Source: Desulforegula conservatrix Mb1Pa (GTDB lineage Bacteria; Desulfobacterota; Desulfobacteria; Desulfobacterales; Desulforegulaceae). From it: DNA of 64,000 nucleotides. Numbering within the stretch: position 1 is the stretch's first letter; the number at the start of each line of letters is the position of its first letter. The position numbers and the translations under genes are program-made. The stretch lies in NCBI RefSeq assembly GCF_000426225.1, contig NZ_AUEY01000004.1:1-64000 (forward strand), given 5' to 3'. The notes beneath the pieces were generated by a model. The model saw nothing but the letters and a program-made list of their open reading frames with translations. It was not told the origin of the DNA and ran no database searches. Of the stretch, positions 50,309-55,869 are shown one piece after another.

Positions 50309-50722
50309 ATGACATCCAACACAAAACAAAAACTCTTTGCCTGGCTTCCGGTTCTTTTATATTTTGGATTGATTTTTTACGAGTCATCCCATCCTCTGCC
50401 CAAAGGATTCCCCACCAAATGGAATTTCGACAAGTTATGCCATTTTTTCGCTTACCTTGTTGCCGGCATACTTGTACTCAGAGCTGTTCGAACTATCCCC
50501 AAATTAAAATCTCCAGCTATTTCAGCCGCAATCAGCATCGTGACTGTTTCTTTATACGGAGTGTCAGACGAACTGCATCAGTGCTTTGTTCCATCAAGAT
50601 GCGCAGATCGTTACGACCTTATCGCCAACATACTCGGATGTACAGTTGGCGTACTTTTATATGCATACATATTCCGCATCAGGAAAAAAGAACTCCTTTT
50701 CGAAGAGATTCGGAAAGTCTGA
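50309..50722 (+). CDS. VanZ-like family membrane protein
   Basis: A 137-residue protein with four likely membrane helices and the VanZ-type motif SDELHQCFVPSRCADRYDLIANILG near 80-105 (key residues Asp, Glu, His, Gln, Asp and Asn). The first cytoplasmic or periplasmic loop has FYESSHPLP. I prefer ATG 50309 over a TTG at 50285. Its last 44 bases overlap the end of the convergent GCS2-family gene. VanZ-like proteins are linked to glycopeptide or envelope stress in other bacteria, but a function here is not established. Confidence 0.8.
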   Translation: MTSNTKQKLFAWLPVLLYFGLIFYESSHPLPKGFPTKWNFDKLCHFFAYLVAGILVLRAVRTIPKLKSPAISAAISIVTVSLYGVSDELHQCFVPSRCADRYDLIANILGCTVGVLLYAYIFRIRKKELLFEEIRKV

Positions 50723-51902
50723 ACCAGGTATCAAGAACAGCCTTTTCTCCGAAATCTTTACCAAGGGAAGAAACTATTCTTGAAGACAAATTTCTTTCAA
50801 GAATAATTTCAAGACTGTCATTAAAAGGCGATAGTTCGGAGCAGTCAGATGACAGTTTTTCGTAAATACTTTTTACGGCATCCCCTGCCCTTGCCTTTTC
50901 TCCGCCAATGCCAAAAAAAGCAAGGAATTCAGAATCTTTAATCTCAGCATCTCCGCCCTTTTCAAAGCATTTAAAAAGAATATCCGCCAGCCTTTCAGTG
51001 GCAAAATTCTTATATTTGGAAAAAGGCGCGTACCTTTCTTCAGCAATTGCCTTCACAAGGTAAAAAACAAAAGCGCAAATCGATATATCGGCTTTCGGAC
51101 ATTCCTGGGTGTCTATGAGTCTTATTTCTATGGCATTTCGTTCAAAACGGGCAATCGCCCCCCTGGAATTTAGCCACTCATCCTGGAGTATTTCCTCAGG
51201 ATCATAAGGAGCAATATCTTTATACATGCTGGATAGGATTTTATCCCTGTACTCTGATTCTGAAAAAACAGGTTCTGGTATTATCATGCCTGCTATGGAA
51301 GGAATCTTTGCCTGGTTGTGTCTGTAAACATTGAGCCTTGTATCAGAAAAGCCGGTCAGCCGTCCTTCCATAACCGGCGAACTTGAGCTGATTGCGGGAA
51401 TAAGCGGAAGCACAAGCCTTATTGAGGAATGGAGCCTTGCAAATTCCTCATCGCCCTGAAAAGGCATGTTAATATGCACGCTCTGGAGATTCGACCATCC
51501 ATGCCCCTTGCATCCGAATATCCGGTCGTATGCGTTATAAATGGTTTTGTCGCCATAGGGCCATAAAACAGTGTCAGTATCAGGCTTCATAAAAGGATGC
51601 ATGCCGCCCGGAAGAAGCATGGCATAATATTTTTCAAGCTTTTTATTAACTATATCAGCCTGTTTTTGGAATTCACCTGAAAGGCCGTCAAAGGATGAAA
51701 CAGGAGAGGCGAGCTTGAACTCTATCACATGTGAGACAAGTTCATTAGACCAGTTGATGACGCCCATTTCAATCTCATTTTCAATTGTTCCGTCCGGCAG
51801 GGTCAGAAGCTTTTCCGCAAGCGGCCTTACAGAAAGGGAATCCTTGTCAACGATCATATATTCGATTTCAATACCAACAGCTTCAAAAATGGAATAAGTC
51901 AT
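50679..51902 (-). CDS. GCS2-family glutamate-cysteine ligase-like protein
   Basis: A 407-residue enzyme of the glutamine synthetase-like GCS2 family. It begins SIFEAVGIEIEYMIVD, with the metal-binding EIEY, and has the core features MGVINWSNELVSHVIEFK, VHINMPFQG and AIEIRLIDTQECP near 270, which match carboxylate-amine ligases that join an amino group to a carboxylate (glutamate or similar) using ATP. Whether it makes gamma-glutamylcysteine cannot be told. Its gene is on the same strand as the ATP-grasp/C39 pair, with one divergent gene between. GGAG precedes the ATG. Confidence 0.85.
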   Translation of the reverse strand: MTYSIFEAVGIEIEYMIVDKDSLSVRPLAEKLLTLPDGTIENEIEMGVINWSNELVSHVIEFKLASPVSSFDGLSGEFQKQADIVNKKLEKYYAMLLPGGMHPFMKPDTDTVLWPYGDKTIYNAYDRIFGCKGHGWSNLQSVHINMPFQGDEEFARLHSSIRLVLPLIPAISSSSPVMEGRLTGFSDTRLNVYRHNQAKIPSIAGMIIPEPVFSESEYRDKILSSMYKDIAPYDPEEILQDEWLNSRGAIARFERNAIEIRLIDTQECPKADISICAFVFYLVKAIAEERYAPFSKYKNFATERLADILFKCFEKGGDAEIKDSEFLAFFGIGGEKARAGDAVKSIYEKLSSDCSELSPFNDSLEIILERNLSSRIVSSLGKDFGEKAVLDTWFRLSESLRKGVLFS

Positions 51903-52235
51903 TTTTTCTCCGTTTTCAGATCAGGTTGATGCGTAGCCTTTCATCAAAGACCTTTGAGTGCAAAATTTCCACAGACTATAGCTTCATGGATGGCAGATCA
52001 AGTATTTCTGAATTATTTACCTGGTTAATCCAGTGGATCAGCACCATCTTTAGTTAGCCCCAAAAGCTGGCCAAGCATTAAGTCTATTCCTTATTTATCA
52101 ATATTGACTTGCGTTGTTATAGATTTATACTTCTTTTAGAATCCATAAATAAAGAAATGTTGAACAGACCGAGCAATGATGTTCCTTGATTTTATTAAAA
52201 AATCATTATCATCATGGCTCTTATCGGAGGCCGAA
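51903..52235. other. Divergent intergenic region
   Basis: This 333-bp gap separates the GCS2-like gene (minus) and the His-rich protein gene (plus). The clear element is a sigma-70 promoter at 52104-52131. I see no gene in the rest. Confidence 0.6.
52104..52131 (+). promoter_or_regulatory. Sigma-70-type promoter
   Basis: TTGACT, 16 bases, TATACT: both hexamers have only one mismatch from consensus. The expected start point is about 95 bases upstream of the ATG at 52236. It should drive the His-rich secreted protein. Confidence 0.7.
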
Positions 52236-52748
52236 ATGAAAACGGATCGCATTTTAAACGCAATCGTACTTTTATCGGGCATGTTTATTTTTTTATTCAT
52301 TGCCCCAAGCTGGGTTCAAGCAGGATATTATGTTTCCAAGCATGGAGGAATAAACCATACCCCCGCAGGATATCATTCCTACAAAGAACCTTGGCTCGAT
52401 GTGAACATTTTCAGCCCGGTGCCTTCAAGGGTTCAGGAATACAGGACTTATGAACGTCATTATAATAATTATGATGACGATGGATATATGTATTCTGATC
52501 ACAATCATCACAAAAAATATCATTACAAACACCATAAAAAGCATGGCCCGCCTCCTGGCTGGTATACAAGGGTAAGGCCCGGATATGTTATGCCGCCTGA
52601 TATATATGTATACAGAGAACCTGTTCCCCAATATATCATGGTCAAAATGCCTCCCCAGCCGCCTGGGGTCATTCATGTAATGATTGGCGGAAAAATAGTC
52701 AGGCTGATGGAGGCGACGCTGACGATAATGGATGTATTTGATATGTAA
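52236..52748 (+). CDS. Secreted His/Tyr-rich small protein
   Basis: A 170-residue protein. The start at 52236 is set by GGAGG five bases upstream; an in-frame ATG at 52176 has none. A signal peptide ends at about PSWVQA (residue 29). The mature protein is rich in His, Tyr and Pro, with a dense patch of nine or more histidines (DHNHHKKYHYKHHKKHG near 90-106) followed by PPPGW and REPVPQY. No domain is recognised. The His patch could bind metal ions or act in the envelope. It has its own promoter and terminator and lies between the two minus-strand ligase genes. Confidence 0.65.
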   Translation: MKTDRILNAIVLLSGMFIFLFIAPSWVQAGYYVSKHGGINHTPAGYHSYKEPWLDVNIFSPVPSRVQEYRTYERHYNNYDDDGYMYSDHNHHKKYHYKHHKKHGPPPGWYTRVRPGYVMPPDIYVYREPVPQYIMVKMPPQPPGVIHVMIGGKIVRLMEATLTIMDVFDM

Positions 52749-52758
52749 TTCTAAATTT

Positions 52759-52792
52759 AAAGCCGCTAAGGAAGAGTCTTCCAAGCGGCTTT
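52759..52792. terminator. Bidirectional terminator
   Basis: AAAGCCGCT and AGCGGCTTT form a nine-base stem, with an inner GGAAGA/TCTTCC stem on top. It lies between the ends of the His-rich protein gene (plus) and the ATP-grasp gene (minus) and can serve both. Confidence 0.8.
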
Positions 52793-52827
52793 AGGTTTTC
52801 AAATGCAGGCAAAATTTCTAATCGAAA

Positions 52828-54285
52828 CTACACAGCCTTTTTCCTTCTCACGCTCTCCATAAAATGGTTCATTATTTTAAGATAAAGTCCTTCCTTCATC
52901 ACATCATCTTCAATGCCGCTGTCTATGCTTGGGTTATCATTTACCTCGATCACATAATTTTTACTCTCGAATGTCTTGATGTCGATTCCATAAAGACCTT
53001 CGCCGATCAGCCTTGAAGCGCGTAGAGCCATTTTTATTACAGCGTCAGGCACATCTTCAATTTTCAGGGCTTCGGTATTACCCATTTCGACCGATGTTTT
53101 TTTCCACTCGACTATCTGCCAGTGGGAGCCTGCCATATAATACTTACAGGCGTAGATGACCTCTCCGGCAAGTGTTCCAATGCGCCAGTCAAAGGCTGTA
53201 GGCATGAATGCCTGGGCTATTATGAGTTCTGATTTCTGGAGCATCTGACCGGCTTTAATCATGAAATCATCATAATCCTCTGCCTTTACAACGCCCTGGG
53301 AGAATGAACTGTCAGGCTGCTTGATTATGCATGGAAAGCTGAGCCTCGAAACAACCTTATCAAGGCTCTTCCTGTTTATAATGACTGTATCAGGCGATGG
53401 GATTCTGTGCTGACCAAGAAGCTCTGCAAGATAGACCTTGTTCGTGCACCTTATGATGGACTGGGGATCATCAATAACAAAAAGCCCTTCTGCCTCTGCC
53501 CTCTGGGCAAATTTGAAGGTATGATGATTAACTGCGGTCGTTTCACGGATAAAAAGGGCATCAAATACTGGAAGCCTGTGATAGTCATTCTTTGTGATGA
53601 TTTCTGTATTGAATCCGCATGACTCGGCAGCTTTTTCAAATTTTGAAATAGCCTTTGCATCTGACGGAGGCATTTTTTCATCTGGGTCTATCAGAATTGC
53701 AAGATCATACACCCTGCTCTTCCTGCGCCTCTGCTTTTGTTCATGCCCTTCGAGATAAGCTCCGGCAAAATCTATCACATATGGAAAGTGATTTTCAGGG
53801 ATATCACTGACCGCAATCATGCTGACATTTCTAAGATGCCATTTACCATCTTTCTTAAAGAAAAAAGCCCTTAGAAACGGACATCTGAACAGGTTGAAAA
53901 GCTCCATGCTTAGCCTGTCGTACTTCATGGCAAGATTTTTGCCGAAATAGATGCTCAGCTCAAAGGTTTCCGACTGTATCTGTTTGAAACTTTTCTGAAT
54001 TATTTCATCCATCTCCTCACTTACAAGGCGCATTACTGATCTTGATTTCAGATCAAGTATGGATGTTATGGACGGGAAAGCCTTATGCCCCCTTGCCGCT
54101 GCAATGAGCGAGACATAATATCCCATTGTCTGATATCTGTATGACTTGCACAGATTAAAAACCCTGGTTCTTCTTGGAAGATCACCAAGACGGCTTTCAA
54201 GATAATCACGCGCTGAAACAACGCCGACATTGGGTATATTGAGTGGCCAGTTTTTGGGATTATCAACCACCAGAAGTACGTTCAT
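52828..54285 (-). CDS. RimK-like ATP-grasp ligase with RLAN N-terminal domain
   Basis: A 485-residue ligase. The N-terminal region (about 1-190; NVLLVVDNPKNWPLNIPNV start, then NLCKSYRYQTMGYYVSLIAAAR) matches the RLAN domain found before some ATP-grasp modules. The C-terminal ATP-grasp part (about 270-480) has SFPCIIKQPDSSFSQGV, AFMPTAFDWRIGTLAGE and the metal-binding VIEVNDNPSID with Glu447 and Asn449. It would form an amide bond between a carboxylate and an amino group using ATP, as RimK does when it adds glutamate. The start overlaps the stop of the C39-like gene (TGATG), so the two are translationally coupled. Confidence 0.88.
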   Translation of the reverse strand: MNVLLVVDNPKNWPLNIPNVGVVSARDYLESRLGDLPRRTRVFNLCKSYRYQTMGYYVSLIAAARGHKAFPSITSILDLKSRSVMRLVSEEMDEIIQKSFKQIQSETFELSIYFGKNLAMKYDRLSMELFNLFRCPFLRAFFFKKDGKWHLRNVSMIAVSDIPENHFPYVIDFAGAYLEGHEQKQRRRKSRVYDLAILIDPDEKMPPSDAKAISKFEKAAESCGFNTEIITKNDYHRLPVFDALFIRETTAVNHHTFKFAQRAEAEGLFVIDDPQSIIRCTNKVYLAELLGQHRIPSPDTVIINRKSLDKVVSRLSFPCIIKQPDSSFSQGVVKAEDYDDFMIKAGQMLQKSELIIAQAFMPTAFDWRIGTLAGEVIYACKYYMAGSHWQIVEWKKTSVEMGNTEALKIEDVPDAVIKMALRASRLIGEGLYGIDIKTFESKNYVIEVNDNPSIDSGIEDDVMKEGLYLKIMNHFMESVRRKKAV

Positions 54286-55013
54286 CAGTTCTCCTGCAAA
54301 ACACTGCTTTCAGCCGGTTCAATAACCAGAAGATTGGAATCAAAAGTTACTATACCGAGCAAAATTGCATGAATCAGTCTGTTTATATTAACCGAATAAT
54401 AATGTTTTTTGAATAAAGGATTTGAGTGATAGGGGTCTGCAATCATAACTTTTTTTCTGAGCAGGTCATACCCCCTCAAAACCACAAAATGTCCGCTGGG
54501 AACGCCTTTCACATCATGGTATTCATTAGTTTCGGGAACCTCACGCGCCGTGTCATAGAGGTATGTCGCACTGAGACCAGCAAGAATCGGTTTTTCATGC
54601 TGAAGATACATCCTTATAAGCTTGCGGGTAATTGGCGCAAAATGTATTTCTCCGCCATTTTCAAGAAACGACAAATACCCGGACGTCGCATTTTTGAATC
54701 TGTCCGACCTCTTGTGCTTGGCCTGTGCTAATAGCTTTTGTTTCAGGGATACGCCTTTTCCCTTAAACCATGTCGGATCAAACATATGAAGATTATTTGT
54801 AAAAATATCAGCCTTATAGCCACGTTTTAAAGCATGATTTCCAAGATGTACAGCCAGAGTTCCGCCTGTATCAACGCAACGAACCTCGTCAATGACCTGA
54901 TCTATTGAAATCTGGTCGCCATAGTAATTATATATTGCATGAAGGCAGGTGGGGCCGCATGTTTCATCATCTGGCTGGGGTAGAATTTCAAGGGGAAGCT
55001 TCTGCATGATCAT
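54285..55013 (-). CDS. C39-like cysteine peptidase
   Basis: A 242-residue papain-fold protein of the C39 type. Catalytic residues are visible: Cys19 in DDETCGPTCL, His175 in PSGHFVVLRGYD and Asp193 in MIADPYHSNP. There is no signal peptide or membrane segment, so it acts in the cytoplasm. It is the first gene of a pair with the ATP-grasp ligase; the ATG at 55013 has GGAGG six bases upstream. In such clusters a cysteine peptidase may process the ligase product or its peptide substrate, or act as a transpeptidase. The natural substrate is unknown. Confidence 0.87.
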   Translation of the reverse strand: MIMQKLPLEILPQPDDETCGPTCLHAIYNYYGDQISIDQVIDEVRCVDTGGTLAVHLGNHALKRGYKADIFTNNLHMFDPTWFKGKGVSLKQKLLAQAKHKRSDRFKNATSGYLSFLENGGEIHFAPITRKLIRMYLQHEKPILAGLSATYLYDTAREVPETNEYHDVKGVPSGHFVVLRGYDLLRKKVMIADPYHSNPLFKKHYYSVNINRLIHAILLGIVTFDSNLLVIEPAESSVLQEN

Positions 55014-55325: not shown

Positions 55326-55550
55326 TTACACGAAGGTTAAAAAGTCATCAACGGTCATTTCACAATCGTTTAGTATTTTGATCATTAGCCCGCTTCCGAT
55401 TGTTTCACCAGAATGAACAGCGACAACTGTACAACGACCATCTTCATGTTGAAGAAAATGATGACTGCCTTTTATGCGAATAACTTCAAATCCAGCTTTC
55501 CGCAAAGCAGAAATAACCTTTTTGCCTGTTATCCTTGGAAGCCTGCTCAT
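55326..55550 (-). CDS. hicA: HicA-family mRNA interferase toxin
   Basis: A 74-residue toxin with the HicA signature SRLPRITGKKVISALRKAGFEV and the catalytic-histidine motif IKGSHHFLQHEDG near 27-38, followed by VVAVHSGETIGSGLMIKI. The double-stranded RNA-binding-like fold would cleave mRNA when free of antitoxin. The start codon overlaps the stop of the preceding HicB gene by four bases, so the two are translationally coupled and the antitoxin is made first. Confidence 0.88.
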   Translation of the reverse strand: MSRLPRITGKKVISALRKAGFEVIRIKGSHHFLQHEDGRCTVVAVHSGETIGSGLMIKILNDCEMTVDDFLTFV

Positions 55551-55762
55551 GCCTCGACTGATATCCTCTGAACTCCAACAAACTCTGTATATCTGACATT
55601 ATCGCCTTCAACCTCAATACATAGTTCAATGGCTTCGCGAACTCTCTTCATAAGTGTATCAAGGTTTTTTGCCTGGGTGTGGCAACCTTTTAATTCAGGT
55701 ACTGAGGCGACAAAAAAGCCATCTTCATCGCGCTCAATGATAACATTGAACTCTCGTTTCAT
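55547..55762 (-). CDS. hicB: HicB-family antitoxin
   Basis: A 71-residue antitoxin with the RNase H-like fold signature FNVIIERDEDGFFVASVPELKG and the typical TQAKNLDTLMKRVREAIEL helix. I choose ATG 55762 because AGGAGG lies six bases upstream; a longer frame starting at 55813 is rejected. There is no C-terminal helix-turn-helix domain, so autoregulation may be weak or need HicA. It is the first gene of the hicB-hicA order and should neutralise the toxin encoded directly after it. Confidence 0.88.
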   Translation of the reverse strand: MKREFNVIIERDEDGFFVASVPELKGCHTQAKNLDTLMKRVREAIELCIEVEGDNVRYTEFVGVQRISVEA

Positions 55763-55869
55763 ACAGCGCCTCCTATGGACATCTCGACAATGCATTGAAA
55801 GAATAAACCGCAATCCCCTTATGACTCTACTCTTAATTTGAGATTTCTCAAACCTGAATATTTGTCCAT

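Follow-up and report, generated by a model that had tools for sequence, protein, structure and literature searches.

What do two amide ligases and a cysteine peptidase, encoded side by side in Desulforegula conservatrix Mb1Pa, do together, and do they belong together at all? The genes lie on contig NZ_AUEY01000004.1, within a stretch of 64,000 nucleotides that was analysed as a whole (the window; plain coordinates refer to it, while G, C and L numbers are our handles for genomes, contigs and loci, the host being G000). In order of transcription, and all on the minus strand, they encode a C39-like papain-fold cysteine peptidase (54285..55013, 242 amino acids), an RLAN/RimK-like ATP-grasp amide ligase (52828..54285, 485 amino acids) and a carboxylate-amine ligase of the GCS2 family (50679..51902, 407 amino acids). 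A functional link among the three, as the original prediction for this DNA had proposed, is strongly supported by an operon found in 16 phyla, by phyletic co-occurrence and by co-evolution. The prediction had overlooked a fourth component, a homologue of N-formylglutamate amidohydrolase (FGase), which in the host is unlinked to the other genes.

The three open reading frames (ORFs) were found exactly where they had been predicted, and their families were borne out by Pfam. The peptidase stop and the ATP-grasp start share one base in the motif TGATG (54283..54287, minus strand; ...CAGGAGAACTGATGAAC..., with AGGAG just upstream), again as claimed, and this overlap, as read from the sequence, couples the peptidase and ATP-grasp genes. 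The GCS2 gene stands apart from the other two, separated from them by a gene on the plus strand for a histidine-rich, secreted-type protein (52176..52748), whose divergent position had also been noticed. Scanning the locus for promoters and terminators gave sites no more frequent than in shuffled sequences, and is uninformative on a promoter of its own for GCS2.

To place this arrangement in a wider context, 85,000 species genomes were scanned with the ATP-grasp protein, giving at least 533 relatives, the best 80 of which were analysed. At about 65 of these 80 the genes form a tight same-strand operon in the order C39, RLAN/ATP-grasp, GCS2, usually with stop/start overlaps, and near-zero spacing of peptidase and ATP-grasp genes is also seen in most of 65 loci. 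All ORFs were then profiled in 84 loci, comprising the best 80, three loci from the host's order and the window. The trio occurred together in 67 of the 84, C39 with ATP-grasp only in seven (two of them at a contig end), the set without C39 in three, and ATP-grasp alone in seven. The median gap was 0 bases between the C39 and ATP-grasp genes and −4 between ATP-grasp and GCS2, the latter value being affected by the choice of ORF start. The loci with all three genes represent 16 named phyla, so that the neighbourhood is conserved; within the host's own order, G021 (locus L009) carries a strict, overlapping C39-ATP-grasp-GCS2 operon. The earlier statement that the set is not one strict operon therefore holds for the window but not elsewhere, where a strict operon is the rule and the window the exception.

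Clustering of the neighbouring ORFs revealed one family far above the rest, an FGase homologue (PF05013) located directly after GCS2. It was present in 41 loci and 12 phyla, and in 37 of the 58 trio loci with room for it (in one of these at a distance of 4.6 kb). Independent annotation of Legionella adelaidensis lists a RimK-family protein, a glutamate-cysteine ligase family protein and an N-formylglutamate amidohydrolase in a row. The operon FGase proteins match the Atu2144 structure (2odf) at an E-value of 3e-37, and residues E14, H15, H124 and H128 are invariant in 30 homologues. The only FGase of the host is encoded on another contig (G000:C178:1325-2038); it scores 77.8 bits with PF05013 (cut-off 28.9) and belongs to the operon subtype, scoring 297 bits against the operon-FGase profile and being about 37-50% identical in sequence to the copies found in operons. 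Our literature search found no paper joining FGase to an ATP-grasp ligase operon. Because the FGase gene is on another contig, an opposite-strand gene splits the trio and other genomes co-locate these genes, the window is regarded as a broken-up, dispersed copy of a four-gene pathway.

Co-occurrence of the families, which the prediction had proposed as a check, was found also in a survey of 297 genomes of the host's phylum, each searched for all four subtypes. ATP-grasp was carried by 14 genomes, the GCS2 and C39 subtypes by 11 each and the FGase subtype by eight. An ATP-grasp gene accompanied GCS2 in 11 of 11 genomes and C39 in 10 of 11, and all eight FGase carriers had both ATP-grasp and GCS2. 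Hypergeometric p values for co-occurrence range from 1e-17 to 2e-12, and are rough since genomes are not independent. The distance matrices of the proteins correlate pairwise with r of 0.64-0.73, values never reached in 1000 permutations. The prediction had also considered that the ligases might fall in unrelated housekeeping clades; what was found instead was the operon, the co-occurrence and the co-evolution, and since no genome surveyed has the subtype-specific GCS2 or FGase gene without the ATP-grasp gene, a housekeeping reading is rejected. Conservation of so compact an operon across 16 phyla, when only about 5% of the genomes sampled from the host's phylum have it, points to a small pathway that is useful but patchily distributed. 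In the ATP-grasp tree the window sequence groups with L008, from the same order, and with four Spirochaetota, while other copies from that order lie elsewhere, a topology that fits horizontal spread without proving it. A defence system was considered and rejected, no PADLOC match being obtained for any of the four proteins.

Two genomes of the survey deserve separate mention. The sole C39 exception, G173, has an operon-type C39 gene (G173:C85:3185-3901) and lacks ATP-grasp, GCS2 and FGase. In G264 the ATP-grasp gene (G264:C6:7193-8661; L109, L112) is seemingly split over two frames with a TGA, GCS2 and FGase remaining, and may be a decaying copy.

The ATP-grasp ligase, the sole RLAN/ATP-grasp copy of the host genome, matches the RLAN family at 1.3e-44 (PF14401, 151.9 bits, cut-off 25; residues 25-166, 53788..54213, minus strand) and the RimK-type ATP-grasp family at 1e-10 (42 bits, cut-off 21). 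It misses the NCBIfam cut-offs of the RimK family, scoring 69.9 of 143.4 bits with TIGR00768 and 19.9 of 331 bits with PRK10446, the Escherichia coli RimK model. Residues K283, K322, D435, E447 and N449 are invariant in 64 homologues, the last three aligning with the D, E and N of RimK. The AlphaFold model has a predicted local distance difference test score (pLDDT) of 88.4 and a predicted template modelling score (pTM) of 0.60, and its structural matches cover residues 190-484, C-terminal to the RLAN domain, for which a sequence search matched no solved structure. The core (residues 193-481; 52843..53709, minus strand) is of the LysX/ArgX/RimK type: its best match in the PDB is ArgX (Z 28.6, 267 residues, root-mean-square deviation (rmsd) 2.2), with which LysX and RimK tie within about one Z unit, and glutathione synthetase (1gsa) follows at Z 22.9 over 267 residues with rmsd 2.8. 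Ligases of this type attach glutamate or aminoadipate, and among their protein substrates are LysW and RpsF, the ligation taking place at a C-terminal glutamate. Phage records searched with the protein yielded weak matches to the ATP-grasp core only, and the structural search of BFVD generic ATP-grasp proteins only.

Some relatives of this ligase are found outside the operon. In G019, from the host's order, a GNAT-RLAN-ATP-grasp fusion (L010 6704-8653) occurs in the absence of operon-type C39, GCS2 and FGase genes; it may be a stand-alone version whose acetyltransferase protects an amine. L008 has the ATP-grasp gene alone, and a Pseudomonas aeruginosa plasmid record has a divergent RLAN/ATP-grasp gene alone (L094 5905-7494), near pagP, a glutamate/aspartate ATP-binding cassette (ABC) transporter and ggt.

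The peptidase, the first gene of the set, matches both Peptidase_C39_2 (2.1e-10; PF13529, 41.8 bits, cut-off 24) and Peptidase_C39 (7.1e-8; PF03412, 32.8 bits, cut-off 22), and no signal peptide is apparent. Its Q13, C19, H175 and D193, a Cys-His-Asp triad with the oxyanion Gln, are invariant or all but invariant in 57 homologues; the catalytic residues that the prediction had recognized in the C39 and ATP-grasp proteins are thus conserved across phyla. The AlphaFold model (pLDDT 93.9) matches papain folds at Z values of about 16. The highest Z, 16.6 (161 residues, rmsd 2.5), belongs to Alr0975, a primitive phytochelatin synthase in a structure with glutathione, nearly equalled by the C39 transporter peptidases PCAT1/ComA (Z 16.5, 136 residues, rmsd 2.1), and because of this tie the fold cannot discriminate between them. 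Unlike the C39 transporter peptidases, this protein consists of one domain only and is not fused to an ABC transporter; the phytochelatin synthase family gave no Pfam match at an E-value of 0.01.

The GCS2 protein covers profile positions 1-281 of 291 of PF04107 (2.8e-26, 93 bits, cut-off 21) and shows 40-48% identity with its operon counterparts at 52 other loci; its active site, too, is invariant among homologues. The YbdK and glutamate-cysteine ligase models of NCBIfam (TIGR02050, PRK13515-13518) are missed, the best score being 50.1 of 176.4 bits, and the nearest solved relatives, YbdK (E 0.007) and plant glutamate-cysteine ligase (E 0.03), are so distant that the operon protein forms a distinct subtype. 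Another GCS2-family protein of the host, highly divergent (35.8 bits; L011 6276-7586, G000:C23) and not of the operon subtype, is encoded directly after a major facilitator superfamily transporter with a sensor-like N-terminus and a gene for an ABC-type binding protein.

We propose that the window carries a conserved cytosolic pathway in dispersed form, one that would assemble and trim a peptide or amide of glutamate type, a reading we consider on balance probable. In the model, the GCS2 ligase would use ATP to activate a carboxyl group, which family precedent suggests is the gamma-carboxyl of glutamate, for bonding to an amine. Its partner, the RLAN/ATP-grasp ligase, would convert a carboxyl into an acyl-phosphate and add a further amino acid, as in LysX, ArgX and RimK. 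The papain-fold enzyme would form an acyl-enzyme at Cys19 and in this way cut or transfer the product; where present, the FGase-type metallo-amidohydrolase would remove an acyl group from a glutamate-containing piece or recycle it. Two bond-making and two bond-breaking enzymes would constitute a cycle of synthesis and turnover on one glutamate-type molecule, a pairing of maker and breaker comparable to those of RimK/RimB and of glutathionylspermidine synthetase/amidase. These ligation and cleavage steps we infer from the genes, their families and active sites, the operon, the co-occurrence, the co-evolution and the predicted folds. More tentatively, with somewhat less than an even chance in our judgement, the four genes would represent a new bacterial peptide cofactor or tag system, built on glutamate and distributed over at least 16 phyla, with GCS2 and RLAN/ATP-grasp as writers and the papain-fold peptidase and FGase-type amidohydrolase as erasers. 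Several points weigh against the proposed cycle. The trio is present without any FGase in G021, G183, G262 and G296, making the FGase dispensable; glutamate as substrate of GCS2 comes from family precedent only, because the protein is far in sequence from YbdK and the plant ligase; and the isolated ATP-grasp genes of L010 (the GNAT fusion), L008 and P. aeruginosa imply uses without the other three genes.

The product had been predicted as a small peptide, a glutamyl-type conjugate or a protein tail; a cytoplasmic pathway forming a peptide or amide is indeed the best reading, and these three options are not separable by sequence. Since no gene for a precursor peptide or partner protein is conserved near the operons (neighbour-ORF clustering; ORFs of 20-110 amino acids), the product is more likely to be small, or the target to be encoded at another site. 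That absence, and the small-molecule substrates of the GCS2 ligases and FGases known to us, also favour a small product over a protein tail, for which no target-protein gene is conserved in the neighbourhood either. The tail reading would have the ATP-grasp ligase, perhaps with GCS2, extend a protein C-terminus by glutamate or a different amino acid and the C39 enzyme remove this residue, in the manner of RimK/RimB or LysX/LysW with a papain-fold eraser. It draws support from the affinity of the ATP-grasp core to LysX, ArgX and RimK, all of which act on a protein C-terminal glutamate, and stand-alone ATP-grasp copies would be expected from it. RimK and RimB of Pseudomonas are moreover a ligase/peptidase pair (PMC12239564). 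Against these, the RimK cut-offs are missed, and we judge the tail rather unlikely.

Less likely still, and in our view improbable, would be a route resembling glutathione and phytochelatin synthesis, in which GCS2 would form a gamma-glutamyl dipeptide, the ATP-grasp ligase would extend it by a further residue and the C39-like enzyme would polymerise the product by transpeptidation, as phytochelatin synthase does with glutathione. A GCS2 and an ATP-grasp ligase together follow the known logic of glutathione synthesis, glutathione synthetase does match the core and Alr0975 heads the fold matches of the peptidase. However, that lead is a tie with the transporter peptidases and so does not discriminate, the peptidase sequence is of the C39/C39_2 type, and LysX/RimK-type ligases match the core clearly better than glutathione synthetase (28.6 vs 22.9). 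Maturation of a ribosomally synthesized and post-translationally modified peptide (RiPP) such as a graspetide, with the ATP-grasp enzyme cross-linking a ribosomal precursor and C39 removing its leader, would agree with the general occurrence of C39 and ATP-grasp proteins in such clusters and with the shared fold of the PCAT leader peptidases. It is made very improbable by the lack of a conserved ORF of 20-110 amino acids near the operons, the small ORFs that do recur being either shadows on the antisense strand or restricted to close relatives, by the single-domain peptidase without ABC transporter, and by GCS2 and FGase, which are not known to be part of such clusters. Chance neighbourhood of genes from unrelated processes could be suspected from the window, where an opposite-strand gene splits the set and the FGase lies elsewhere; it is already refuted by the neighbourhood conserved in 16 phyla, together with co-occurrence and co-evolution, and we give it practically no credence.

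The gene that interrupts the set encodes a protein with a signal-peptide-like N-terminus, possibly metal-binding. Its family has three copies in the host (the window gene, G000:C78:366-860 and G000:C19:28539-28736) and no match in 39 other genomes of the same order, the host being the only carrier among the 40 searched; for both reasons it is rejected as a pathway component and taken as a lineage-specific insertion. Upstream of the C39 gene lies a HicB-like antitoxin homologue (55547-55813, minus strand, 88 amino acids, PF15919 3.6e-7).

The core gene set has probably been described already by comparative genomics: the amidoligase survey of Iyer et al. in 2009 reportedly named the RLAN family and linked RLAN/ATP-grasp proteins to GCS2, GNAT and papain-like peptidases. 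We know of no product reported for such neighbourhoods, in 2009 or since. The window is a rearranged member of this predicted, uncharacterised kind, to which the present analysis adds FGase as a partner and a test of phyletic co-occurrence. The operon is also carried by cultured bacteria, among them Thiobacillus thioparus, Nitrosomonas, Pontibacter, Rufibacter and Blastopirellula marina, and with the fourth gene known its product can be sought directly.

Compared with known systems, the set shares with RimK/RimB of Pseudomonas a RimK-type ligase, whose C-terminal core has the same fold, and an associated peptidase, but RimB is an aspartic, retropepsin-like enzyme whereas the window peptidase is a papain-fold cysteine peptidase, and the RLAN domain, GCS2 and FGase are additional, the ligase lying outside the RimK family cut-offs. 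Structurally, the ATP-grasp core is matched best by LysX and ArgX; they differ in that the window ligase bears the extra RLAN domain and its operons show no conserved carrier-protein gene. Glutathione synthesis combined with the phytochelatin synthase Alr0975 offers the same assortment of a GCS2-type ligase, an ATP-grasp ligase and a papain-fold enzyme, although the window peptidase is without sequence match to phytochelatin synthase and is matched equally by transporter peptidases. Finally, the operon FGases match Atu2144 and keep the conserved residues of the PF05013 family but, leaving aside the unlinked host copy, their context is a ligase operon and not histidine degradation.

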